NCBI RefSeq assembly: GCF_020886695.1
Contig: NZ_AP024485.1
Location: forward strand, 2,303,001 to 2,367,000
Reading direction: 5' to 3'
Source of the DNA: Pseudodesulfovibrio sediminis
GTDB lineage: Bacteria; Desulfobacterota; Desulfovibrionia; Desulfovibrionales; Desulfovibrionaceae
DNA length: 64,000 nucleotides
Below the pieces are notes generated by a model. It worked only from the letters and a program-made list of their open reading frames with translations, was not told where the DNA came from and ran no database searches. Below are positions 11,957 through 24,918 of the stretch, piece after piece (positions within the stretch are counted from its first letter, which is position 1; every line of letters starts with the position of its first letter). The position numbers and the translations under genes are program-made.

Positions 11957-12568
11957 TTAGATTTTTTGTTCCATGGTGGCAAAACAGGGGATACACACGG
12001 TCTTCCCTCCAAAGCGCCGGGTGCGCGATTCCATGACTGACTCGCCACAGCAATCACAAGTCAGGCTTTCCAGTATCTTCGCTCCCCTGGGCGGATCGGT
12101 CGTAAGCGGGGTGACATGAAACATCTCTTCAAGTCCAATCGTCATGAAACGATCCTGCAGCAAGGCCCGCAACTCCTTGACCCTGGACTTGTCCTCTTGC
12201 GTGGCAGAGCCATCTGACTGTTTCCCCATGAGGGCGGCGAGCTCTTCGTCCATGCCTGCCCGGACTGCCGGATTAAGCAGAGCCCGGAATCCTTTGCCGG
12301 ATTTTCTGTCGTAAAAGGAAAAGGCTATCTTCCCGTAATCGCGGTGCAGGAAATTCCCTTTGCCATACGTACACCCTGTAAGAAATTGAATGGCGTCGAC
12401 GCCGCACATGTCGGTCTCGGATACAGCCACCATTTCAATGGCCTCAGGCGACCCCAGTTCATTGATGGCCAGCTCCGACGCACGGATGCCGATGGCCAGC
12501 CCCGGGCAGCTGTGGCCATGGAACGCAATGGTATCTTCGATGGTCTCAGCGGAAAACGTACAGGTCAT
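11957..12568 (-). CDS. FmdE family metal-binding protein
   Basis: 203 residues from an ATG with AAGGAG upstream. The FmdE domain (1-150) has its hallmark FHGHSCPGLAIGIRASE and, later, DMCGVDAIQFLTGCTYGKGN; histidine and cysteines of these motifs bind metal in solved family members. A C-terminal zinc ribbon follows (CDCCGE and CIPC, about 170-195). The family was named after a formylmethanofuran dehydrogenase operon, but this organism need not have that enzyme. It follows an iron-complex-type ABC importer by 23 bases, suggesting a cytoplasmic metal or cofactor handler for the imported ligand. Confidence 0.88.
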   Translation of the reverse strand: MTCTFSAETIEDTIAFHGHSCPGLAIGIRASELAINELGSPEAIEMVAVSETDMCGVDAIQFLTGCTYGKGNFLHRDYGKIAFSFYDRKSGKGFRALLNPAVRAGMDEELAALMGKQSDGSATQEDKSRVKELRALLQDRFMTIGLEEMFHVTPLTTDPPRGAKILESLTCDCCGESVMESRTRRFGGKTVCIPCFATMEQKI

Positions 12569-12591
12569 TGCTCTCTCCTTTCTCTGTATAC

Positions 12592-13347
12592 TCATTGGGC
12601 GGGGACTATCATCGGATAGCCCTGCACGGTATGAATGTGTACCGGCAAACCATACACCTCTTCGACAATATCCGTTGTCACTTCACAGGTAGGGCCGGTT
12701 GAATGGATGTGTCCGTTCTTGAGAAACAGGACCTTGTCCGCATAGCGCAAGGCGGTGTTCAGGTCGTGCATGGTCATGACTGCGGCAATTACGTGCTCGT
12801 CAACAACGCGCCTGAGCATGGTCATGATATCGACCTGACTCTTGAGGTCCAGCGAGCTGGTCGGCTCGTCCAGCAGCATGAGCCGTGGCTCCTGAACCAT
12901 GGCGCGGGCAATGGAGACCTTTTGCAACTCGCCGCCACTCAGTTGATCGATATACCGCAACGACAGTGCCTCCAGATGGAGCCGTTTTATGGCTGAATCA
13001 ACAATCTTGAGATCCTCGTCGCCGACCTTCCACCGGATATGCGGCTTGCGTCCCATGAGTATGGCGTCAAAAACAGTCATGCGGGCGGTGCCGTTCTTTT
13101 GCGCCACATAGCCGATACCCAGCGCGATTTCGTTGGGCTTCATCCTGAGTACGTCACGGCCCTCGACCATGACAATGCCCGCCGAGGGGCGATGAATGGC
13201 GTTGATACATTTGAGCAACGTTGTCTTGCCCACCCCGTTAGGGCCAAGAATCGCTAACAGTTCTCCGCCCTTGAGGTTGAAATCAACCCCGGAGAGCACA
13301 GGCTGACCACCATAGGTGAAATCAATGTCGGCAACGGAAAGGATCAT
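12592..13347 (-). CDS. ABC importer ATPase, FecE/BtuD type
   Basis: 251 residues. Walker A is GPNGVGKTTLL, the signature is LSGGELQKVSIARA, Walker B is LMLLDEPTSSLD and the switch histidine sits in MTMHDLNTAL. It powers the adjacent permease and overlaps its reading frame by four bases. The FecE/BtuD/FhuC branch serves siderophores, heme, cobalamin and other metal chelates. With the permease, binding protein and fmdE it forms a four-gene minus-strand operon. Confidence 0.93.
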   Translation of the reverse strand: MILSVADIDFTYGGQPVLSGVDFNLKGGELLAILGPNGVGKTTLLKCINAIHRPSAGIVMVEGRDVLRMKPNEIALGIGYVAQKNGTARMTVFDAILMGRKPHIRWKVGDEDLKIVDSAIKRLHLEALSLRYIDQLSGGELQKVSIARAMVQEPRLMLLDEPTSSLDLKSQVDIMTMLRRVVDEHVIAAVMTMHDLNTALRYADKVLFLKNGHIHSTGPTCEVTTDIVEEVYGLPVHIHTVQGYPMIVPAQ

Positions 13348-14414
13348 CTTCGCTGTCCCCTTATGATGAGGTAAATGAAAATCGGCGCGCCCATGAAGGC
13401 CGTGAGCACGGAAACCGGCAAAACATGAGGAGCCAAAACCAGACGGGCCGCCGTGTCCGATACGATCAGCAGCAAGCCGCCGCCCAGGATCGAGGCGGGC
13501 AACAGGAACCGGTGGTCAGAGCCGATAACCCGGCGGGCCATGTGCGGCACCACCAGACCGACAAAGCCGATGATACCCAGAAAGGCGATGATCACGGCTG
13601 TTACCAGCGTGGCCAGCAGCATACCGACCATGCGCACACGCTCCACGCGAACGCCCAGCCCTCTGGCTGTTTCGTCCCCCGCGTCAATGGCGTTGTAGTT
13701 CCAACTGTTGCCAAGGAAAAAGACCGATGCGCCGACCGTGACCGCAGTAATAACGCCCAGTTCGGACCATGACGCGCGGGCCGTGTCGCCAAAGCTCCAA
13801 AAGACGATGGCGGCAAGCTGCACGTCATCGGCAAAGTATTGCAGAAACATGGTTCCGGCCGTGAAAAGCGCACCCAGGGCCACACCGGTGAGCACCATGA
13901 CTTCAGGAGTCGCCCCGCGCAGCCGGGACACCCCGATAATTACGCCCGCCGCAGCCAGACTGAAGGAAAAGGCCACAACCGTGGTGATGAACGGCGAGGT
14001 AATGTTGATCGTGTCCGCGTTGGCGGAGGTCATGATCCCACCACCCAGAATCATGACGGAAAAAGCCGCGCCAAAGGCCGCCGCATGGGAGATGCCCAAC
14101 GTGAACGGAGACCCCAGAGGGTTGCGCAGAATCGATTGCATGGCGGTGCCTGCCACGGCCAGCCCCGCGCCGCCGACAATGGCCGTCAACGCCTGGGGCA
14201 GCCGAATGTTCCAGATGATGACGTCATGCCGTCTGGACACCGCCCCTCCAAGCAGACTTTTGGCGACCTCATCAAGAGGAATGCCCGCAGCTCCAAGGGA
14301 AACAGCCACCACCAGAGACGTAACAAGCAGCCCGGCCAAAAGAACGACAAGCCCGACCTTCCAGCTTATATACCGCTTGTACTCAACAGGGATTGTACCG
14401 TCAGAAAAATGCAC
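13344..14414 (-). CDS. FecCD/BtuC-family permease
   Basis: 356 residues with about ten transmembrane helices. FecCD landmarks are present: GGAGLAVAGTAMQSILRNPLGSPFTLGIS, and near the end FLGIIGFVGLVVPHMARRVIGSDHRFLLP, the coupling region with the ATPase, then GAPIFIYLIIR. A cytoplasmic N-terminal tail of about 20 residues precedes the first helix. It forms the membrane channel, as a homodimer, for the binding protein encoded one base upstream. The same family member occurs again at 16977-18044, in a different, clearly diverged form. Confidence 0.93.
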   Translation of the reverse strand: MHFSDGTIPVEYKRYISWKVGLVVLLAGLLVTSLVVAVSLGAAGIPLDEVAKSLLGGAVSRRHDVIIWNIRLPQALTAIVGGAGLAVAGTAMQSILRNPLGSPFTLGISHAAAFGAAFSVMILGGGIMTSANADTINITSPFITTVVAFSFSLAAAGVIIGVSRLRGATPEVMVLTGVALGALFTAGTMFLQYFADDVQLAAIVFWSFGDTARASWSELGVITAVTVGASVFFLGNSWNYNAIDAGDETARGLGVRVERVRMVGMLLATLVTAVIIAFLGIIGFVGLVVPHMARRVIGSDHRFLLPASILGGGLLLIVSDTAARLVLAPHVLPVSVLTAFMGAPIFIYLIIRGQRR

Positions 14415-14415
14415 G

Positions 14416-15525
14416 CTAATTCACCGGTACCGGCTTGTATGCCATGCCGCGAAAGATGCCGTTCATGTCTGAATACACCGGCTTGCCCACCAGAAACGTA
14501 TATATCTCGTCAGCCTTGGCAGCCGGGTCCACATCGGTAAAGCGTTCGGGATAGAGCTGCTTGCCGATGAAGAAGGCGTTGGCAAGAATGGAGCCGTAGT
14601 TCTGCGTATACCAGTTGTAGGGAAGCAACCCGTAGACCCTGCCTTCCCTGACCGCGGTCAACGTGCGGTATGCCGGGTCTGTGCGCAGCTCGAAAAGCCC
14701 CCCGGCCTTATCTCCCAATTGCAGGGTAGACAGATCGAGGAACAGGTAATCGGGGTTCCACTCAACGATCTTTTCCTTTGATACGTCGGAATGGCTGAGT
14801 TCCTTTTTCGTGATTCCCTTGGTGTAGGCGAGATTGTGCGCATTGACGAAAGAGAACGGCGGGTAACCGGGTTCCGTTGACTGATACCCGTGTGGCCCCT
14901 TGAAGGCGACGCCCCCCACGAAAACCGAAGGACGTTGCTGTTCCGGTATGTCTGCCGTGCGCTGAACAAGATCGTCGATCTGTTTTTCCATGAAGGCGAT
15001 GACCGCTTCGGCGCGCTGCTGTTTGCCGATCACCTCGCCCATGGTCCGCAGGGATTGATACAGCTGGGGCCGCAGCGCACCCAGATTGCCGTAGTTGAGC
15101 ACCACAACGGGGATGCCGGTCTTGTCCTGCAGCTCCACAGGGTCGTAGCCCATGCTCGAAGCGTATGTCTTGAAGATGACCTGGGGCTGTGGCTCCAGCG
15201 TCAAAATGAGTTCCGGATTATCATGTCCCCGAAATTCGCCGAAGATGGGCAGCGATTTGAACTGCGGATTGGCCAACGCATACGGGCGTGCATCAAACGT
15301 CTTTTTCCGGCTCTCGATGTCGTCGACCGCCACTGCCGTGGACTGGGCCTGAAGATATGTCAGCAGCCGAAGACAACCCGAGCCTGAACAAATGGAACGC
15401 TCAACACGCTCGGGCACATTCACCGTTCGCTTTGAAGCATCAACGATGGCTCGGGTTCCGGCAAAGGCCGGTAAAGCCAAAAGCATGGCCAGGATCAAAA
15501 GACACGACTGAATTGAACGAGACAT
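14416..15525 (-). CDS. metal-chelate ABC substrate-binding protein
   Basis: 369 residues with a signal peptide ending near AFAG. It belongs to the helical-backbone (cluster A-II, BtuF/FhuD) family: VNVPERVERSICSGSGCLRLLTYL, then PELILTLEPQPQVIFKTYAS and the C-terminal lobe beginning RPSVFVGGVAFKGPHGYQSTEPGYPPFSFVN. The last phrase belongs to a distinct subfamily usually annotated as iron ABC transporter binding proteins. Cys46 and Cys50 near the ligand cleft are unusual. It is the first gene of the permease-ATPase-fmdE operon and is divergent from a second importer. The ligand is not known; iron, corrinoid or another metal complex are all possible. Confidence 0.88.
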   Translation of the reverse strand: MSRSIQSCLLILAMLLALPAFAGTRAIVDASKRTVNVPERVERSICSGSGCLRLLTYLQAQSTAVAVDDIESRKKTFDARPYALANPQFKSLPIFGEFRGHDNPELILTLEPQPQVIFKTYASSMGYDPVELQDKTGIPVVVLNYGNLGALRPQLYQSLRTMGEVIGKQQRAEAVIAFMEKQIDDLVQRTADIPEQQRPSVFVGGVAFKGPHGYQSTEPGYPPFSFVNAHNLAYTKGITKKELSHSDVSKEKIVEWNPDYLFLDLSTLQLGDKAGGLFELRTDPAYRTLTAVREGRVYGLLPYNWYTQNYGSILANAFFIGKQLYPERFTDVDPAAKADEIYTFLVGKPVYSDMNGIFRGMAYKPVPVN

Positions 15526-15924
15526 ACGACTTTACTCCACGGGATAAGTACGGGGTTGCGAGTGCCACCAAGTTTATATTTGTAATACTGAACGAGTATG
15601 AAAAAACAAATCATGAGTCAAGGTTCACATAAATTTATGGTTTGTAATTAAGCCCCCGAAAAAGGAATGCCGGACGGGAAGTCAGCCATTGAGCCGAGTG
15701 CCAGAGGAGCGTGTCCCTCATTCGCGAAAACGGCCCTCTACAAACAGAGGCCGGATTCATTCGGTCAACCCGCTGAACAGGCGCATCTTCCCCTTGTGAT
15801 CATTCGTGTCACGGATACATGAAAAGGCGTGACGCAATTGGCAGGGTAGAAAATGTAGATTAAGTGGTCAGTATCAATGAATGCCCCATATACCAATTTA
15901 AGTACAAAACTAAATGATCACATC
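15526..15924. promoter_or_regulatory. shared control region of two divergent importer operons
   Basis: 399 noncoding bases between the two binding-protein genes. The first 100 bases from each gene are AT-rich and the middle (about 15660-15800) is GC-rich with short inverted repeats such as GGCCCTCT and AGAGGCC at 15732-15754. That suggests a structured leader or a regulator site. I found no convincing Fur box, NikR site or known riboswitch core. Confidence 0.45.
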
Positions 15925-16980
15925 ATGAGCAAAAAGACACAACAAATATCAAAATGGAAAAGAAGCATTGCAGTCATTGTGTGCGTATTGTCCATCACTA
16001 TTACAGGACATGCATTCGCCAAAGACATGAAAGACATGACTGGTCGCGTTGTTGCAGTCCCGGACAGGGTGCAGACCGTGTACGCGGTCTCACCGCCCGA
16101 GACCATGCTTGTCTATGCCCTTGACCCAACGCTGCTTGCCGGATTGAACTTCCCGCTACGGGGCTGTGAAAAATACATTGATACGCATACGCTGAACCTT
16201 CCCGTAATCGGGGGGTATTTCGGACAGGGGAAAACACCCAACAAGGAAAAACTTGTCAAACTGAACCCGGATCTGGTGATCGGAAGAAAATCCAATCCCA
16301 TGAGCGAGAAATTCGAACAGTTTCTCGCCAAGTTCAACATCCCCATCGCCACAATCATTATTGATCGGCTGGACCAATACCCCGAGGCCTTTGAACTCAC
16401 CGGAGCCATCCTCAACCGGGAGGCTCGGGCAAGGAAACTGGCCGACTATACCCGGGCGACCTTCTCACAGGTCAGCGAAAAGACGGTTTCGATACCAACA
16501 GCCAAACGGGTGAGGGTCTATTACGCCGAAGGCAATGACGGCCTGTATACGGAGTCCAACGGCTCGATTCATGCCGAACTCATTCCCCTTGCCGGGGGAG
16601 TCAATGTTCACGATCAGGGGACAGTGACCCGGTACGGCAGGGACAAGGTGACCATGGAGACGATCATCGCCTATCAGCCTGAGGTCATCTTTGTCGAACA
16701 GCCTGTCTTTTATGACAAAATATATTCCTCGCCCGGCTGGAAGAGTATTCCGGCGGTCAAGAACAAGCGGGTCTATCTCATACCGAAAAAACCATTCAAC
16801 TGGTTTGATCGTCCCCCGTCGTTCATGCGCATACTGGGGTTAAAATGGGTTGCACAGACGCTCTATCCCGATCTGTTCGGTTTGGACATGCAACAGGAAT
16901 GTCGCGATTTCTTCCACCTGTTCCTGCAAAAGGACATTTCTCCCGAAGACGCGGCCCAACTCATGAGCAGTGCACAATGA
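15925..16980 (+). CDS. second metal-chelate ABC substrate-binding protein
   Basis: 351 residues from the ATG at 15925, where the signal peptide KRSIAVIVCVLSITITGHAFA begins properly; the frame can be extended to 15877. Cluster A-II fold: DMTGRVVAVPDRVQTVYAVSPPETMLVYAL, a first lobe ending NPDLVIGR, and a second lobe (about 193-320) with RVRVYYAEG, VTMETIIAYQPEVIFVE and KRVYLIPKKPFNW. It is exported and delivers its ligand to the permease, whose start overlaps its stop by four bases (ATGA). The second lobe is matched by the C-terminus of the radical SAM protein encoded at the end of the same operon. The ligand is unknown. Confidence 0.88.
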   Translation: MSKKTQQISKWKRSIAVIVCVLSITITGHAFAKDMKDMTGRVVAVPDRVQTVYAVSPPETMLVYALDPTLLAGLNFPLRGCEKYIDTHTLNLPVIGGYFGQGKTPNKEKLVKLNPDLVIGRKSNPMSEKFEQFLAKFNIPIATIIIDRLDQYPEAFELTGAILNREARARKLADYTRATFSQVSEKTVSIPTAKRVRVYYAEGNDGLYTESNGSIHAELIPLAGGVNVHDQGTVTRYGRDKVTMETIIAYQPEVIFVEQPVFYDKIYSSPGWKSIPAVKNKRVYLIPKKPFNWFDRPPSFMRILGLKWVAQTLYPDLFGLDMQQECRDFFHLFLQKDISPEDAAQLMSSAQ

Positions 16981-18044
16981 GCACGGTCAGCACTCTTGTC
17001 CGGACACAGGCGTCTCTTGTCGCGGACAGGGGCGGCTCGTCCGTGCTGCTGCTGGGCCTGACCACACTCCTGATCGTGAGCCTGGTCGTCTCGTTGACCC
17101 TGGGCAATTACCCCTTGTCCCTCCAGGACATAGCAAGCGTCCTGCAACACTCGTTGTTCTCGACCGGGGAGATGCAGCCGGACAGATACCAGTTGGTAAA
17201 GAACATCCTGTTTGACATTCGCGCCCCGCGCCTCATCGCCGCGGCCCTCATCGGGGCTGCGCTGTCCACATCCGGGGCGGCCTTTCAGTCGATGTTCGTC
17301 AATCCGCTGGTCGCACCCGGCATCCTCGGCGTCCTGCCCGGGGCCTCCTTTGGGGCGGCCCTCGGCATGCTGGTCTGCGACTCCTGGATCGAAGTGCAAT
17401 TCCTGAGTTTTGCCGGGGGCATGCTGGCTGTGGGCTTCGCCGTCTTTCTGGCCAAGATATACAAAGGCGACCGGCTGATGATGCTCATCCTCGGCGGTAT
17501 CATCAGCGGGGCCTTCTTCACCTCGCTGCTGTCGGTGGTCAAATACACGGCAGATCCGACAGATCAACTCCCTGCCATTGTATACTGGCTCATGGGCGGC
17601 CTTTCCATGGTTGATACGGAGACCGTCGCCTATACCTCCATCCCCATCCTCATCGGTATCACCTGCATTCTGGGGATGTCCCGCTATCTGAACGCGCTCA
17701 GCATGGGCGACGAAGAAGCCAAGTCCCTTGGTATCAATGTAAAAGTAGTTCGCACCTGCCTGATCATCTTTGCCACGGTGATCAGTGCGCTGACCGTTGC
17801 CATCGGCGGATTGATCGGCTGGGTCGGGCTTGTCATCCCGCACATAGGGCGCATGCTCGTTGGCCCCAACAACGCCATCCTGCTCCCCACAACAGCCCTT
17901 ATCGGAGCAACCTATCTCGTGTTTGTGGACGATGTTTCCCGGCTTCTGCTGGACGTGGAAATCCCGCTGGGCATCATCACCTCTCTGGTGGGAATCCCGT
18001 TCTTTTCCATAATCATGAAAAACGCAAAACAGGGGTGGAAGTGA
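16977..18044 (+). CDS. FecCD-family permease of the second importer
   Basis: 355 residues from an ATG overlapping the binding-protein stop (ATGA), so translation is probably coupled. About ten membrane helices; FecCD landmarks are AALIGAALSTSGAAFQSMFVNPLVAPGILG and IGGLIGWVGLVIPHIGRMLVGPNN. The motif TDQLPAIVYWLMGGLS is conserved in this family. It is the channel for the ligand of the preceding binding protein. Compared with the permease at 13344, the sequence differs almost everywhere outside the family motifs, so the two systems are not recent duplicates. Confidence 0.93.
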   Translation: MSTVSTLVRTQASLVADRGGSSVLLLGLTTLLIVSLVVSLTLGNYPLSLQDIASVLQHSLFSTGEMQPDRYQLVKNILFDIRAPRLIAAALIGAALSTSGAAFQSMFVNPLVAPGILGVLPGASFGAALGMLVCDSWIEVQFLSFAGGMLAVGFAVFLAKIYKGDRLMMLILGGIISGAFFTSLLSVVKYTADPTDQLPAIVYWLMGGLSMVDTETVAYTSIPILIGITCILGMSRYLNALSMGDEEAKSLGINVKVVRTCLIIFATVISALTVAIGGLIGWVGLVIPHIGRMLVGPNNAILLPTTALIGATYLVFVDDVSRLLLDVEIPLGIITSLVGIPFFSIIMKNAKQGWK

Positions 18045-18889
18045 TGTCCTTGCTCCGTGCGAACGCGCTCTCTTTTTCGTATGCGGATACGCCCATACTC
18101 AACGATATTTCCTTCTCCGTTGCCACCGGGGAACTGGTCTCGGTGCTCGGCCCCAACGGATGCGGCAAGACAACGCTGCTGAAAGTACTGCTCGGCATAC
18201 TGCTGCCGGAGAAGGGTCAGGTTCTCCTCAATGAAGTCGACATTCACTCCATCGGCAGGAAAGCTCTCGCCAAGAAGATCGCCTATGTTCCTCAGGTGCA
18301 CACGGCCTCTTTTGCCTACCCGGTCATGGACGTGGTCATGATGGGACGCATGCCGCACAAGGGATTCTTCAGCCTCTTTTCCAACAAGGATGCAGCGCTG
18401 GCTCTCAGGGCCATGGAAAAGACCGGCATCCTGCATCTGAAAGACAAATCATACACCCAGATCAGCGGTGGCGAGCGACAACTGACACTCATAGCCCGAG
18501 CACTGGCGCAGGGGGCACGGACATTCATTCTGGATGAACCCCTCAACGGCCTGGACTATGGCAACCAACTCAAGTTGTTGGAACAACTGCACGAGCTGTG
18601 CGGCGAAGGGTACACCTTCATCAAGTCCACTCATTTCCCGGACCACGCACTGTGGGTTTCAGACCATGTGGTCATGCTCAAGAACGGCGTCGTGCATACC
18701 GACGGACATCCCCGGGATGTCATTACACAGGAAAGCCTGTTCGCGCTCTATGGCGCCCAGGTCAAAGTCCTGCCGTATGCGGAAAATTTCAGGATTTGTA
18801 TTCCAGGGAAGATATACTCCCGACTATGCCCCACCCTGCCCAAGGTGGCCGACCTTCGGAAGCACCCATCCCGCTCCTTCATGTACTGA
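18044..18889 (+). CDS. ABC importer ATPase of the second importer
   Basis: 281 residues from the ATG in TGATG overlapping the permease stop; a GTG at 18035 is a possible alternative. Walker A is GPNGCGKTTLL, signature ISGGERQLTLIARA (a variant of LSGGQ), Walker B TFILDEPLNGLD, and the switch is KSTHFPDHAL, where histidine is kept. It drives the FecCD permease. Near its 3' end starts a 15-bp inverted repeat that closes just before the methyltransferase gene. Confidence 0.92.
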   Translation: MSLLRANALSFSYADTPILNDISFSVATGELVSVLGPNGCGKTTLLKVLLGILLPEKGQVLLNEVDIHSIGRKALAKKIAYVPQVHTASFAYPVMDVVMMGRMPHKGFFSLFSNKDAALALRAMEKTGILHLKDKSYTQISGGERQLTLIARALAQGARTFILDEPLNGLDYGNQLKLLEQLHELCGEGYTFIKSTHFPDHALWVSDHVVMLKNGVVHTDGHPRDVITQESLFALYGAQVKVLPYAENFRICIPGKIYSRLCPTLPKVADLRKHPSRSFMY

Positions 18890-18941: not shown

Positions 18942-19574
18942 ATGACTATAGCGGAAGATAACAAGCCTTTTTTCAAATACACCAAAGACCATCGCTTTGC
19001 CCCGATGTATCCGCTTCTGGCAAAGGAGATTGTTGATAAATACGGCATCACCGAAGGCGTCTGTCTCGATATAGGCGCAGGCAGCGGCGCCCTGTCCATT
19101 GAGCTGTCAAAGATCACTTCCCTCTCGCTGATCGCACTGGATATAGAACCGGAAGCAATCGAAATGGCTGAAGAAAACTGTGTAATACACAATGTCCCCC
19201 ATAAACGGATTCGATTCGTATTTGGTGCCGTTGAAAAGATGCCGCTGCCTGACGCCAGCGTCGATCTGATCCTCAGCCGCGGCTCCATACCCTTCTGGAC
19301 GGATCATGTGTCTGCCTTTGAAGATATATTTCGGGTACTCGCCCCACAGGGAAAAGCCATGATCGGCTGCGGATTCAGCCGCTACCAGAGCCTGAAAGAG
19401 GTCGAAAAGATGCGTCCGGTCTGGACGCCGGAGGTACTGAAAAAACGGACCCGTTGGAAAAAAGGCAGTTTCCTGGCGGATACCCTGCGTGAAGCCGGCA
19501 TCAATGAATACACGATCACGGATGACAGCTTCGGAACATGGATCGAACTCTATAAATCCCCGGAGACACGGTAA
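18942..19574 (+). CDS. class I SAM-dependent methyltransferase
   Basis: 210 residues with a Rossmann-type methyltransferase fold: motif I LDIGAGSGALSIEL, the acidic ribose-binding LIALDIEPEAIEMA, and motif IV-like VDLILSRGSIPFW. AAAGGAG lies before the ATG. Its stop overlaps the start of the radical SAM gene (TAATG), so the two are translationally coupled and probably act together. The methyl acceptor is unknown. In the operon with a metal-chelate importer, methylation of an imported or newly made ligand is the natural guess. The C-terminus (residues 150-205) looks like a substrate-specific cap. Confidence 0.88.
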   Translation: MTIAEDNKPFFKYTKDHRFAPMYPLLAKEIVDKYGITEGVCLDIGAGSGALSIELSKITSLSLIALDIEPEAIEMAEENCVIHNVPHKRIRFVFGAVEKMPLPDASVDLILSRGSIPFWTDHVSAFEDIFRVLAPQGKAMIGCGFSRYQSLKEVEKMRPVWTPEVLKKRTRWKKGSFLADTLREAGINEYTITDDSFGTWIELYKSPETR

Positions 19575-21409
19575 TGTCCGATACTCAACAGGTCCGGTCC
19601 TGTCATATCTGCGAAAACGCCTGCCCGGTCGCTCCGGGCAGCGTGGGACTGTGCGGACGCTACGGGAACAGGGACGGCGTCATCACGGAGCTGTATCCAA
19701 ACACTTACATCATGGCCTGCCCCATCCGTATCGAAACCATGCCCATGCTCCATTTTCATCCCGGGGCACGGTTCCTTCAGGTGAGCACCGTGGGCTGCAA
19801 TTTCGACTGCCCCGGCTGCATCTCTGCGGTGATCGTTCGTGAAATGCACCCGCAAAGCAAAGCGCTACAGGAGTATTCGCCCGAGCAGATCGTTGAAAAG
19901 GCGATTCTGAGCGGATGCAGGGGAATCACCTTTCTGATGAACGACCCGCTGGCCGCTTTTGAGACCTTTTTGGCTGTCGCCACATTGGCCAAGGCGCGGG
20001 GGCTGCACGTGGGCTGCTCCTCAAACGGATATTTCTCCAAAGAGTCCATACAGCGGATTCTGCCTGTGCTGGATTTCATCAACATCGGGGTAAAAGGCCT
20101 CTCCGATGAAGCCTACCATGTCTGCTCCGGCCTCAAGGGGTTCGCGCCCGTGCTGCGCAACATCAAACTGCTGCACGAGGGTGGGGTACACATCGAAATC
20201 GCCTGCATCCACAGGAAAGGGCATGAAGACGAACTGCTGAGGCTGTGTTCCATCATCAAGGACATATCTCCCGTGATCCCCTTGCAGATGATGCGTTTCA
20301 TCCCGCTGGAAGGCGCAGACCCGGAACAGGAACCGCTGATCAGGGAAAGCGAAACCCTCAGCAAGCAGATGCGGACCATTCTGGACAATGTGTATGTGTT
20401 CAACTCTCCGGGCACCGAGGAATTGAATACCGTATGCCCACACTGCGGCGACACGACCATTGTCAGGGACTTTTACGGCCCCATGGGCGCACGGATGAAA
20501 GGCAGCGCGGTCAGGGAGGCTGAACAGCCGCTCTGCCTTGCCTGCGACAGCCCTGTCCAGATTCAGGGGCGGGTCTTTGATATCGATTTTCGGGAAAAGG
20601 ACTTCCAGGGAGGCTATCCCTTTACCCGCGCCCTGGAAATCGTCGAATCCATCCTGATCGCCATCGGCGTTTCTAGCAAGGCGGAAGTCGTGCATGTCTG
20701 GGAGTACCTGCTGTGCAACAACAAGATGCAGGACCTGCACCACGACATACAACGGGTGGAAAGCTATATCCACATGATCCGTTTCTTCGGCTCACTGGTG
20801 CACCGCGAGGAGTCCGCCGATGTGCTGGCCAATTATCTGGAAGACAAGGTGTCGCTGGTCCGATCAACTTGTCGACAGGACGGCAAACGCCCCAGGGTCT
20901 ATTACGCCATGGGCAAACCACAGTTCTGCATCAAGGGAGAGCGGTTCGAAAACCACCTGGTGGAGCTGTGCAACGGAGTGAGCGTCAACCGGGAGATTGA
21001 AATCTGCGGTCGGCCCGGCATGAGCATCGCACTGGACACCCTGCAACAGTTGAACCCCGAAATCATCTTCATCTCGGCGTTCATATCCAACTCTCCCATA
21101 GACTTCTACAACGAGTGTGTGGACAAAGGGCTGGGCATTGATGCGGTACACAACAAGCGCATCCATACCGCTCCTATCCCCAGCAGTGACTTTGGCGGCC
21201 CCAAATGGATCCTCGGTCTCATGAACATCGCCAACGAAATGCACAGAGGGGTTTGTGCATTCGATATCCCTGGCGAGGCTTCCAAGTTCTACGAGCGCTT
21301 TTATGGCACATCGTTCAACGCACAGGACGTGAACCGATCCTTTGGCAAGCCTGACACCTCCTGGACGTGGGAAGCAGAGGGCGGACAGCCCTCTCCCACT
21401 CTGGCGTGA
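19574..21409 (+). CDS. radical SAM enzyme fused to a binding-protein-like C-terminal lobe
   Basis: 611 residues, no signal peptide. Residues 10-27 hold a CxxCxxxC and C27 cluster as in AMMECR1/Memo-linked radical SAM proteins. The SAM-cluster motif CNFDCPGC (CX3CX2C) is at 75-82. Four cysteines in two pairs (CPHC 288-291, CLAC 321-324) form a zinc ribbon or auxiliary cluster. A helical linker covers about 345-435. Residues 439-585 (RVYYAMGK, GMSIALDTLQQLNPEIIFIS, NKRIHTAPIP, KWILGLMNIA) align in order with residues 195-320 of the operon's binding protein. I infer a cytoplasmic ligand-binding lobe joined to a radical enzyme. The reaction is unknown. It is the last gene of the operon. Confidence 0.85.
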   Translation: MSDTQQVRSCHICENACPVAPGSVGLCGRYGNRDGVITELYPNTYIMACPIRIETMPMLHFHPGARFLQVSTVGCNFDCPGCISAVIVREMHPQSKALQEYSPEQIVEKAILSGCRGITFLMNDPLAAFETFLAVATLAKARGLHVGCSSNGYFSKESIQRILPVLDFINIGVKGLSDEAYHVCSGLKGFAPVLRNIKLLHEGGVHIEIACIHRKGHEDELLRLCSIIKDISPVIPLQMMRFIPLEGADPEQEPLIRESETLSKQMRTILDNVYVFNSPGTEELNTVCPHCGDTTIVRDFYGPMGARMKGSAVREAEQPLCLACDSPVQIQGRVFDIDFREKDFQGGYPFTRALEIVESILIAIGVSSKAEVVHVWEYLLCNNKMQDLHHDIQRVESYIHMIRFFGSLVHREESADVLANYLEDKVSLVRSTCRQDGKRPRVYYAMGKPQFCIKGERFENHLVELCNGVSVNREIEICGRPGMSIALDTLQQLNPEIIFISAFISNSPIDFYNECVDKGLGIDAVHNKRIHTAPIPSSDFGGPKWILGLMNIANEMHRGVCAFDIPGEASKFYERFYGTSFNAQDVNRSFGKPDTSWTWEAEGGQPSPTLA

Positions 21410-22822: not shown

Positions 22823-23342
22823 GCGGCGAACATACCGCGGGGCCAACCGAAGTGCAAATCGAAATGGACGTATTGCAAAATGCCACGGGCATGTATTGTG
22901 CACCATAAGGCATACTTGAGACACAGAGTCCTTTTGGTAGCGTATGGCTACACTGAAACACGCAGATTCCACAAACCCGCTCCCAGATCAAAGAGCTCCT
23001 CGATCAGCACCAAACGCCAATCGAGTAGCAAACCCGGGGAAACATGCCCTTTGCCATGACTTCCCTGCGCTAAAAATCAAAAGGCGCTGTCCTGTTTCCC
23101 GGCTTCATTGCACGCGCCAACGAAACGCACTCAAAAAAGAAGAAGGCCATGTACGGCCACAAAGGCAAGATGTTCCCATTGAGAGCCGAAGGGTACTGAA
23201 GAGGGAATAGAGCCGATCAAGTAAGATTTTCCAGACCGGATCGCCTTTGTTGTAGTATCTTGTAGTTTGCTCTTGCTACGTTGGCAGAAAATGCGTGTTT
23301 TTTGTCATTGCCGCCAAAAAGTATCCCCTCTATCCTGTCTCC
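22823..23342. other. 520-base intergenic region
   Basis: Space upstream of both the iron-sulfur protein and the GlxA-like gene. Reading frames here are short and have the wrong codon pattern. I see no tRNA, riboswitch or strong hairpin. It must hold both promoters; none could be assigned with confidence. Confidence 0.5.
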
Positions 23343-24353
23343 ATGAAGAAGCGCATGGAGTTCTATTTCTATCAGGGTATGGTGGCACTTGATGTCACCG
23401 GTCCTCTCGACGTCTTTAACGCTGCCGATGAGATACTCTCGCGCAATGGAAAAGAACAGGAGGGGTATGAGCTGACTTTTTCTGCCAACACTCCCGGCCC
23501 TATCCCCACTTCTTCCGGCTTGTGTTTTCACGCGGACGTCTGTCCCGGATTGGAAAAGGCCGACACCCTCTTGGTACCAGGTGGCATGATCGCAGAAACG
23601 GCTTCCACAGACTCAGACAATATTAAGGCCATACAAATGGCAGCCCGAAAAGCGAAACGGATCGTTTCGGTTTGCAGCGGGGCTTTTCTCTTGGCTTCCG
23701 CAGGCATCCTCGATGATCGAAGGGCTACCACCCATTGGATGGTAGCTGACCGGCTGGCCGCACTCTATCCCAATGTCCACATGGAGCCAGATTCAATATA
23801 TGTACAGGACGGCACCATCTCTACCAGCGCGGGAGTGACTGCAGGGATTGATCTGGCGCTTGCGCTAGTAGAAGAGGACTACGGCCCTTCATTGGCTATT
23901 GAAGTGGCGAGACTGCTGCTGCTTTACCGTAGGCGGCCAGGAAATCAGAGCCAGTTCAGTACCACGCTTGCCATGCAGACCAAAGTGGGAGAACGTTTCA
24001 AGCCCCTTGTCGATTGGATCGAAACCCATCTTGATCAAAAACTCACAGTGGACCTGTTGGCTGAGAAGGCACACATGAGTTCACGTACTTTTGCACGCAT
24101 TTTTCCGTCGGAAACAGGCATGAGCCCAGGCCGGTTTATTGAGCAGTTGCGAATCGATCGCGCGCGCGAATTGCTCGAATCCGGTGCCGAAGGGCTTGAA
24201 CAAGTAGCGCGCGAATCCGGCTTTGGCCGAGAGGAGCGGTTGCGCCGCGCCTTCCAAAGAAGGCTCGGCATCAGTCCGACTCAATATCGAGCCCATTTTA
24301 TACAAGGAGAACACCATGACCACAGGTCTTACCTACGGGATACTCATTTATGA
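23343..24353 (+). CDS. GlxA-like AraC regulator with DJ-1/PfpI domain
   Basis: 336 residues from the ATG at 23343; the ribosome site is weak and 23358 is a second option. Residues 1-190 form a DJ-1/PfpI amidotransferase-like domain with the nucleophile-elbow VCSGAFLLASAGIL (cysteine present) and RRATTHW. The C-terminal AraC HTH pair (about 225-325) has LTVDLLAEKAHMSSRTFARIF and LEQVARESGFGREERLRRAF. Members (GlxA, FtrA, GbdR) respond to small metabolites. The following gene encodes a second DJ-1/PfpI protein and overlaps this one by 38 bases, so the pair is co-expressed. Confidence 0.88.
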   Translation: MKKRMEFYFYQGMVALDVTGPLDVFNAADEILSRNGKEQEGYELTFSANTPGPIPTSSGLCFHADVCPGLEKADTLLVPGGMIAETASTDSDNIKAIQMAARKAKRIVSVCSGAFLLASAGILDDRRATTHWMVADRLAALYPNVHMEPDSIYVQDGTISTSAGVTAGIDLALALVEEDYGPSLAIEVARLLLLYRRRPGNQSQFSTTLAMQTKVGERFKPLVDWIETHLDQKLTVDLLAEKAHMSSRTFARIFPSETGMSPGRFIEQLRIDRARELLESGAEGLEQVARESGFGREERLRRAFQRRLGISPTQYRAHFIQGEHHDHRSYLRDTHL

Positions 24354-24918
24354 ACAGGTCGCGGAACTCGACTTCGTCGGCCCGCTCCAGGTTTTTGGCA
24401 TATCAAACCACCTGCTGAACAGTGGGAGAGTCGTGACTATCGGCCAGGCCAACAATCCCCTGCGTGGGACTGGGGGACTGCAGATGATACCTGACTACAG
24501 CTTTGATGTTGCGCCGAAACTTGATGTCCTGCTTCTGCCCGGTACAGCCGAGATCAGCGAATACGCCCTTGGCAACGACACGATCATCGACTGGGTGCGA
24601 GGACAGTATGACAAAGTTGATTGGATGACGAGCGTTTGTACGGGAGGCCTTATCCTACAAAAGGCGGGCCTGCTCAAGGGACGCAAGGCAACAACCCACT
24701 GGATGCTGATGGATTCACTGGCCAAAGACCCTGAAGTGACGGCATTGTCGGATCTTCGCTATGTCCGCGATGGCAACATCGTGACCGCTCAAGGCGTTTC
24801 CGCGGGCATTGACATGGCCCTGTGGCTGGTGGGTGAAATTCACTCTCCTGACCACGCCCGAATGGTCAGAAAGATTCTTCAATACGATCCGGCTCCGCCC
24901 TACACGGCGGAAGTCTGA
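24316..24918 (+). CDS. DJ-1/PfpI family protein, isonitrile-hydratase-like
   Basis: 200 residues from an ATG with AAGGAG seven bases upstream, inside the 3' end of the GlxA-like gene. The fold signature is LTYGILIYEQVAELDFVGPLQVFGI, the nucleophile elbow TSVCTGGLILQKAGLL with its cysteine, then GRKATTHWMLMD. This pattern matches the branch that contains Pseudomonas isonitrile hydratase (InhA), which turns isonitriles into N-formamides. The identity of the substrate here is inferred from similarity only. It may instead be a general thiol hydrolase or glyoxalase III-like enzyme. Confidence 0.85.
   Translation: MTTGLTYGILIYEQVAELDFVGPLQVFGISNHLLNSGRVVTIGQANNPLRGTGGLQMIPDYSFDVAPKLDVLLLPGTAEISEYALGNDTIIDWVRGQYDKVDWMTSVCTGGLILQKAGLLKGRKATTHWMLMDSLAKDPEVTALSDLRYVRDGNIVTAQGVSAGIDMALWLVGEIHSPDHARMVRKILQYDPAPPYTAEV

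Follow-up and report, generated by a model that had tools for sequence, protein, structure and literature searches.

The fused gene and its operon

The stretch of DNA analysed here (in the following, the window) comprises 64,000 nt of contig NZ_AP024485.1 of Pseudodesulfovibrio sediminis (positions 2,303,001 to 2,367,000). On its plus strand it harbours a run of five genes in the order binding protein, permease, ATP-binding cassette (ABC) ATPase, methyltransferase and a fused gene, which links a radical S-adenosylmethionine (SAM) enzyme to a C-terminal lobe of the binding-protein type (Table 1). The ATG of the fused gene and the stop codon of the methyltransferase gene share a single base, the last of the stop codon. 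The region upstream of the operon (15400-15960) contained short repeats only.

Table 1. Features of the fused gene, its operon and the divergent second operon. Positions refer to the window; ORF, open reading frame; aa, amino acids; E, expect value.
Feature	Position	Strand	Basis or remark
Fused gene (radical SAM enzyme and C-terminal binding-protein lobe)	19574..21409	+	611 aa, ORF open throughout
Radical SAM part, residues 9-303	19598..20482	+	AmmeMemoSam-like, TIGR04337 110 bits
CX3CX2C motif, Cys75/79/82	19796..19819	+	kept in 77/77 aligned homologues
CPxC...CxxC knuckle, residues 288-324	20435..20545	+	cysteine conservation among 77 aligned homologues
Helical segment, residues 345-391, at the N-lobe place of a binding protein	20606..20746	+	no sheet predicted
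Binding-protein backbone helix and C-terminal lobe, residues 392-590	20747..21343	+	BLAST, profile-profile comparison, predicted fold
Exported BtuF/MolA-like binding protein (P0002)	15925..16980	+	signal peptide judged by eye
FecCD/BtuC-type permease	16977..18044	+	start picked within longer ORF 16845-18044
BtuD/FecE-type ABC ATPase	18035..18889	+	domain models
Class I SAM-dependent methyltransferase, 210 aa	18942..19574	+	domain models
Second operon, binding protein	14416..15525	-	domain models
Second operon, permease	13344..14414	-	similarity to 16977 gene (cluster 4)
Second operon, ATPase	12592..13347	-	similarity to 18035 gene (cluster 3)
Second operon, FmdE-family protein with zinc finger	11957..12595	-	PF02663, E 9e-41

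A predicted binding-protein lobe joined to a radical SAM enzyme

An earlier inspection of the letters without database searches (the sequence-only reading) had claimed that residues 439-585 of the fused protein form a BtuF/FhuD-type C-terminal lobe. A single BLAST comparison aligned residues 392-585 with residues 146-342 of P0002, with 53 of 203 positions identical (26%, E 2e-14), and all stretches on which the claim was built (RVYYA; NPEIIFIS/QPEVIFVE; NKRIHTAPIP/NKRVYLIPKK) lie inside this alignment. The lobe was thus located correctly, but its range was drawn slightly too short, since the lobe region also includes the backbone helix, from about residue 392 on. When the own genome was searched with the fused protein, the matches included P0002 (E 2.6e-10), another exported binding protein (E 9.9e-9) and an ABC ATPase that carries a binding-protein domain (E 5.8e-6). 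As a single sequence the lobe stays below the gathering score of Pfam (PF01497, 13 bits versus 27.5).

Relatives were collected by a scan of genome contigs, and 80 of 103 were used; the neighbourhood counts out of 80 loci include the window. Of 80 lobe-bearing ORFs, window included, 71 entered the lobe alignment and the tree described below, and 72 of 77 binding-protein ORFs, with lengths of 300-460 aa, entered the binding-protein profile. Comparison of the two profiles gave a match with a probability of 99.9% (E 2e-35) over 208 columns, and the lobe profile covered only columns 152-369 of 384, the second half of the binding-protein profile. Against the PDB, the lobe profile matched 4ovk (6.7e-19), 4pag (1.1e-18), IsdE (1.5e-10), MolA (3.6e-10) and BtuF (7e-4).

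The predicted structure agrees with this. An AlphaFold model of the lobe, built from the 71-row alignment, reached a predicted local distance difference test (pLDDT) value of 94.3 and a predicted template modelling (pTM) score of 0.92. Its best PDB matches in Foldseek were substrate-binding proteins (4ovk, 1.8e-10; 4pag, 4.9e-10; 4hn9; MolA 3psa, 4.3e-9), and VIA superposed it on 4hn9 with a Z of 21.2 (root-mean-square deviation 3.3) and on MolA with a Z of 17.5 (deviation 3.2), each over 221 aligned residues. The sheet of the N-lobe is absent from the model, in which three helices precede the backbone helix; the chain ranges of VIA extend into the N-lobe despite these sheetless helices. A model of the full-length fused protein, built from 7 sequences, has poor stretches. 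By profile and predicted fold, the fused protein contains one lobe, not both lobes, of a class III substrate-binding protein (Peripla_BP_2), and the assignment to the C-terminal lobe of BtuF/FhuD-type proteins is borne out.

Export signals were assessed by a crude measure, a hydrophobic stretch near the N-terminus. None of 65 fused proteins had such a 14-residue stretch in the first 45 residues, and within the first 60 residues it was present in 2 of 65 fused proteins versus 66 of 72 binding proteins. A clear export signal is thus lacking, and the fused enzyme is most likely cytosolic, as had been proposed.

Residues 9-303 resemble AmmeMemoSam_rS (TIGR04337) and score well under its curated cut-off (110 versus 220 bits), while the radical SAM superfamily model PF04055 is matched with 63.5 bits at a cut-off of 29.5. 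By these scores this part is related to AmmeMemoSam without belonging to the family. Besides the cysteines of the CX3CX2C motif, the N-terminal Cys10, 13, 17 and 27 are kept in all 77 aligned homologues (this alignment comprises the 77 ORFs of 560-700 aa among the 82 in the cluster). Of the knuckle cysteines, Cys288 and Cys291 are present in 77, Cys321 in 76 and Cys324 in 75 of these sequences, and the knuckle probably ligates metal. The radical SAM part also resembles the pyruvate formate-lyase (PFL)-activating enzyme in structure (Foldseek, 3c8f, 3.4e-7); scores with the glycyl-radical activase models TIGR02493 and TIGR02494 were far under cut-off. A separate gene in the own genome (L002) is 31% identical to residues 6-306 of the fused protein.

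The ABC ATPase fusion detected in the own genome is a 611-aa ORF (L021:5156-6991, minus strand; G000:C1:3350158-3351990) in which an ABC ATPase (PF00005) is joined to a Peripla_BP_2 domain lacking a signal peptide. It adjoins genes for an NMT1-type binding protein, a permease and hydF. Cytosolic binding-protein domains were considered as a wider theme because of this ORF; at E <= 1e-90, among 395 genomes of the phylum, no genome but its own contained the fusion.

Distribution and origin of the fusion

Fused homologues exist in many other genomes. Within the phylum, full-length homologues were found in 8 of 395 genomes, own genome included. The 80 loci comprise 26 from Bacillota, 22 from the archaeal Methanobacteriota, 18 from Thermodesulfobacteriota, 4 from Campylobacterota, 3 each from Myxococcota and Deferribacterota, and 1 each from Chlorobiota, Pseudomonadota and Synergistota, one being unplaced. 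The family thus occurs in nine named phyla of bacteria and archaea. An ORF matching the lobe profile is present in 79 of the 80 loci, and the lobe is encoded in the 80th (L076) as well. Only part of the lobe lies within the ORF in L099, due to a frame change, and in L100, due to the contig end; the fused ORF of L102 is short at its start. The gene in L099 (8899-10740) shifts frame within the lobe. At L012:1501-3330 (minus strand)/L076 the fused gene contains an in-frame TAG, with the remaining frame open; an error, a broken gene or recoding may account for it.

A quick tree, unrooted, was built from 71 lobes, 72 binding proteins and one ABC-fused domain. In it the lobes are separated from the rest by a branch with a Shimodaira-Hasegawa-like approximate likelihood ratio test (SH-aLRT) value of 98, at which, however, a long-branched binding protein (L026) joins. 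Such a single branch would fit one old fusion that gave rise to the family. The view of the sequence-only reading that the lobe is a copy of the corresponding lobe of its own importer is not supported by the tree, which sets the 71 lobes apart from the 72 binding proteins; a recent local duplication of P0002 as the source was rejected on the same separation.

Conserved residues of the lobe

Lobes and exported binding proteins have many scaffold positions in common. In the lobes, M446, P449, F451, R457, E459, G479, P481, G482, D539, F540, G541 and P543 are conserved to 99-100%. Since R457, E459, G479, P481, G482, D539, F540, G541 and P543 are kept in 77 of 77 homologues, the sequences suggest that the lobe holds a candidate binding site. 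In the exported proteins, 76-96% conservation was found for E202, T209, S214, H216, N227, W293, D295, R296 and P297 (numbering of P0002).

Gene neighbourhood of the fused gene

Neighbours were counted within 8 genes of the fused gene in the 80 loci; gene calls are picks of the longest ORF with rough starts, and where contigs are short the counts are minimum values. A methyltransferase cluster was found near the fused gene in 55 loci and directly adjacent to it in 46; all methyltransferase clusters together account for 60 loci. The importer is similarly frequent, with the binding-protein cluster in 51, the ATPase cluster (which also includes ModC-type ATPases) in 48, the permease cluster in 38, and all three in 36 of the 80 loci. 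Further neighbours are DUF364 (13 loci), ModA (12), ModB (12), FmdE (8) and two clusters of TonB receptors (7 each), which are siderophore-like and under cut-off. Less frequent are a regulator with a helix-turn-helix (HTH) and a PBP_like domain (PF12727; 6 loci), CopA-type ATPases (7 loci, 6 of them within 8 genes), MoeA (5), and an HlyD-type membrane-fusion gene (4 loci). In five loci (L027, L029, L031, L039 and L065) the fused gene has a BioB/HmdB-like radical SAM gene in its vicinity, the copy in L029 scoring 140 bits with TIGR03957 (cut-off 320.9). Annotation covered 20 cluster representatives near the fused gene, with most singletons and rarer neighbours falling outside it.

In the P. sediminis operon, P0002 matches 4pag with E 2e-71 and MolA 3psa with E 1.2e-16 in the PDB, and the importer parts find their nearest named models among the BtuC/FecCD and corrinoid/F420-0/FecE types, all under cut-off. 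Divergent from this operon, a second BtuFCD-type operon (11957-15525, minus strand) ends in FmdE; its binding protein has the weakest score of the 72 binding proteins with the lobe profile (15.5 bits). A sister uptake locus in the own genome (L022:3048-11033) has an HTH and PBP_like regulator divergent from genes for a TonB receptor, FmdE, a methyltransferase, a binding protein, a permease and an ATPase, and it lacks a fused gene. Downstream of the fused gene, two adjoining ORFs (23295-24353 and 24223-24918) look DJ-1/ThiJ-like by eye, and the first of them ends in an AraC-like part.

Link to molybdenum and tungsten

In the relatives the gene context points to molybdenum (Mo) or tungsten (W), neither of which the sequence-only reading had named. 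We scanned 64 of the 80 loci with Rfam, which together with the window and L022 made 66 sources. The molybdenum cofactor (Moco) riboswitch RF01055 was detected in 10 of the 64 loci (L029, L031, L039, L040, L042, L059, L060, L063, L065, L087) and Moco-II (RF01713) in one (L025). In eight loci (L025, L031, L039, L059, L060, L063, L065, L087) a Moco RNA heads the same-strand gene run that contains the fused gene; small antisense ORF picks overlapping or adjoining the RNAs in L031 and L039 were disregarded when reading these runs. The eight loci span four lineages: Syntrophomonadaceae, Desulfosporosinus, Geobacter and Pelobacter. In L039 and L087 the run includes a gene for a TonB receptor, which argues that the imported species exceeds a bare oxyanion in size. 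No cobalamin riboswitch reached the gathering score in any of the 66 sources, and a single SAM riboswitch was found, in L027.

A Moco riboswitch was near the fused gene in 10 of 36 loci versus 0.91 expected from genome density, a set into which all positives had been chosen. For modB (TIGR02141, E <= 1e-30, 93 matches in 40 genomes), 10 of 40 loci have a match nearby, compared with 0.55 expected; by ORF clusters the number is 11 of 40, one ORF not being among the hidden Markov model (HMM) matches.

Moco RNAs that bear a P3 stem respond to Moco, and those lacking it to the tungsten cofactor (Wco). The 13 aligned Moco RNAs fall into a short group of 119-120 nt and a long group of 132-148 nt; a P3 stem could not be assigned in them, and the two metals are taken together here. 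In P. sediminis itself the putative link to Mo/W is by homology only.

Proposed function and alternatives

We favour an explanation in which the BtuFCD-type importer, in several loci together with a TonB-dependent outer-membrane receptor, would bring in a Mo/W complex, since the combination of receptor, binding protein and importer suggests a cargo bigger than an oxyanion. The cytosolic lobe would bind the imported complex, or a ligand derived from it, and present the bound species to the 5'-deoxyadenosyl radical. Reactions of the radical SAM enzyme and the methyltransferase would then change the organic ligand and thereby let the metal enter Moco/Wco synthesis. Of the reactions envisaged by the sequence-only reading (modifying or opening the ligand, or inserting metal into it), any may apply. 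What the analysis shows is the domain architecture, a family with a single fusion branch, the frequent proximity of importer and methyltransferase genes, and a Mo/W regulatory context in other genomes. We infer a Mo/W complex as the ligand, in P. sediminis too, with binding by the lobe and processing of the ligand as putative steps. The remaining parts of this explanation are not equally secure. A role of the system in Mo/W metabolism is probable; that the lobe serves as a substrate-binding domain we consider rather likely; that the enzyme processes an imported ligand rather than making one is slightly favoured. For the model as a whole, in which the importer delivers a Mo/W complex and a cytosolic enzyme binds this complex and alters its ligand, we see an even chance.

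Several observations weigh against it. Among loci that had been listed before the RNA scan, a Moco riboswitch was near the fused gene in 4 of 30 versus 0.66 expected (P 0.003), which is weaker than in the 36-locus set, and this statistic, like that for modB, ignores kinship; the 30-genome set omits ten archaeal genomes of the 40 used for modB. The expected riboswitch density may moreover be too low, because not all candidates of the genome RNA search were scored. No Rfam matches were obtained in 9 archaeal loci of one scan batch. In the window, Moco RNA, ModB and PBP_like regulator are all lacking, and of such neighbours only the FmdE gene is present. Binding-protein, permease and methyltransferase clusters are all absent within 8 genes in 14 of the 80 loci, some of them on short contigs, and the closest relative (L024, 71% identity) is one of the 14. 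Radical SAM relatives without a lobe stand beside lobe-bearing copies in L029 (12966-13967) and L088 (3135-4157), so that the lobe is modular. In L088 each of the two copies is preceded by genes for a binding protein, a permease and an ATPase of its own. At matching positions, lobes and exported proteins differ in the residues they conserve most, which weakens the view of the sequence-only reading that both bind the same ligand. MolA lacks the WxDRP stretch of P0002.

An alternative that we regard as rather unlikely is that enzyme and methyltransferase build a small metal-binding molecule, either a Mo/W metallophore or a modified cofactor ligand, which is secreted and re-imported, the lobe holding the product or an intermediate. 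The co-occurrence of several SAM-using enzymes (BioB/HmdB-like radical SAM genes in 5 and methyltransferase clusters in 60 of the 80 loci) would suit such a pathway, the TonB receptors and the BtuFCD-type importer would serve re-uptake, and the HlyD-type gene of four loci is a possible part of an exporter. Among the 20 annotated cluster representatives, however, no assembly-line enzyme was found, and HlyD (4 loci) and the CopA-type ATPases (7 loci) were the only export-type genes.

Somewhat less likely still is a role of the lobe as a sensor or structural domain, which would bind the incoming metal species and switch or anchor an enzyme that acts on a protein, as glycyl-radical activases do. 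The resemblance of the radical SAM part to the PFL-activating enzyme and the AmmeMemoSam family would fit this, as does the existence of lobe-less relatives, but invariance of R457, E459, D539, F540 and G541 in 77 of 77 homologues is expected of a binding site rather than of a spacer, and no gene for a protein substrate stood out among the 20 representatives, none of the searches having been aimed at one. That the system serves a corrinoid, heme or an iron siderophore with only incidental Mo/W neighbours is improbable: the importer models and the receptors do lean in that direction, all under cut-off, but Moco RNAs lead the run of the fused gene in 8 of 64 loci, modB is enriched near it (10 of 40 loci versus 0.55 expected), and corrinoid import was set aside as the leading reading when none of the 66 sources yielded a cobalamin riboswitch.

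The favoured explanation can be extended to a bolder form, which we put forward tentatively and with more doubt than confidence: anaerobic bacteria and methanogens would import Mo/W as an organic complex (an undescribed metallophore or the pterin cofactor itself) by a Moco-controlled TonB/BtuFCD-type route, and the radical SAM barrel, in place of the N-lobe, would clamp the complex, break or rebuild the ligand and free the metal. The closing of enzyme barrel and half binding protein as a clamp on the substrate is a guess.

Many radical SAM enzymes lack a known substrate. Here, the built-in lobe, the importer neighbours and the Moco RNAs point to a substrate class, which makes a family spread over nine named phyla testable. 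If the favoured explanation is true, oxyanion uptake through ModABC/TupABC would not be the sole source of Mo/W for anaerobes, which would also gain the metals in organic form by a TonB/BtuFCD-type route. A lobe of the binding-protein type would then have been re-used within the cell as a substrate clamp.

Comparison with known systems

A literature search (titles and starts of abstracts) revealed no published description of a radical SAM enzyme fused to a binding-protein lobe. The Moco RNA precedes genes for molybdate transport, Moco synthesis and Moco enzymes, and an operon of Syntrophomonas wolfei mentioned in this context contains further genes whose function is unknown (Regulski et al. 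2008, PMC2408646). The parts of that article consulted mention neither a fusion of radical SAM enzyme and binding protein nor a BtuFCD-type importer, in which the loci described here differ from the regulon as presented there. The sections consulted of a Pelobacter genome paper report TonB-type channels near molybdopterin riboswitches as well as radical SAM genes of unknown substrate (PMC3543383).

The fused protein shares residues 9-303 with AmmeMemoRadiSam (TIGR04337), as far as the score of 110 bits goes, and departs from it by remaining under the 220-bit cut-off, by the added binding-protein lobe and by its importer and methyltransferase neighbours. As the family name indicates, the partner genes of AmmeMemoSam_rS are Memo and AMMECR1. 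MolA of Haemophilus influenzae (HI1472, PDB 3psa/3psh), a molybdate-binding protein, resembles the lobe in the fold of its C-lobe (VIA Z 17.5) and in profile comparison (E 3.6e-10). The kinship of the lobe and of P0002 with MolA is one of similarity, and binding of molybdate or tungstate by them is putative. The binding protein of Sulfurospirillum deleyianum (PDB 4pag) is the closest solved relative of P0002 and the second best match of the lobe profile. MolA is a separate binding protein and 4pag is likewise not fused, whereas in the family described here one such lobe is joined to an enzyme that is most likely cytosolic.

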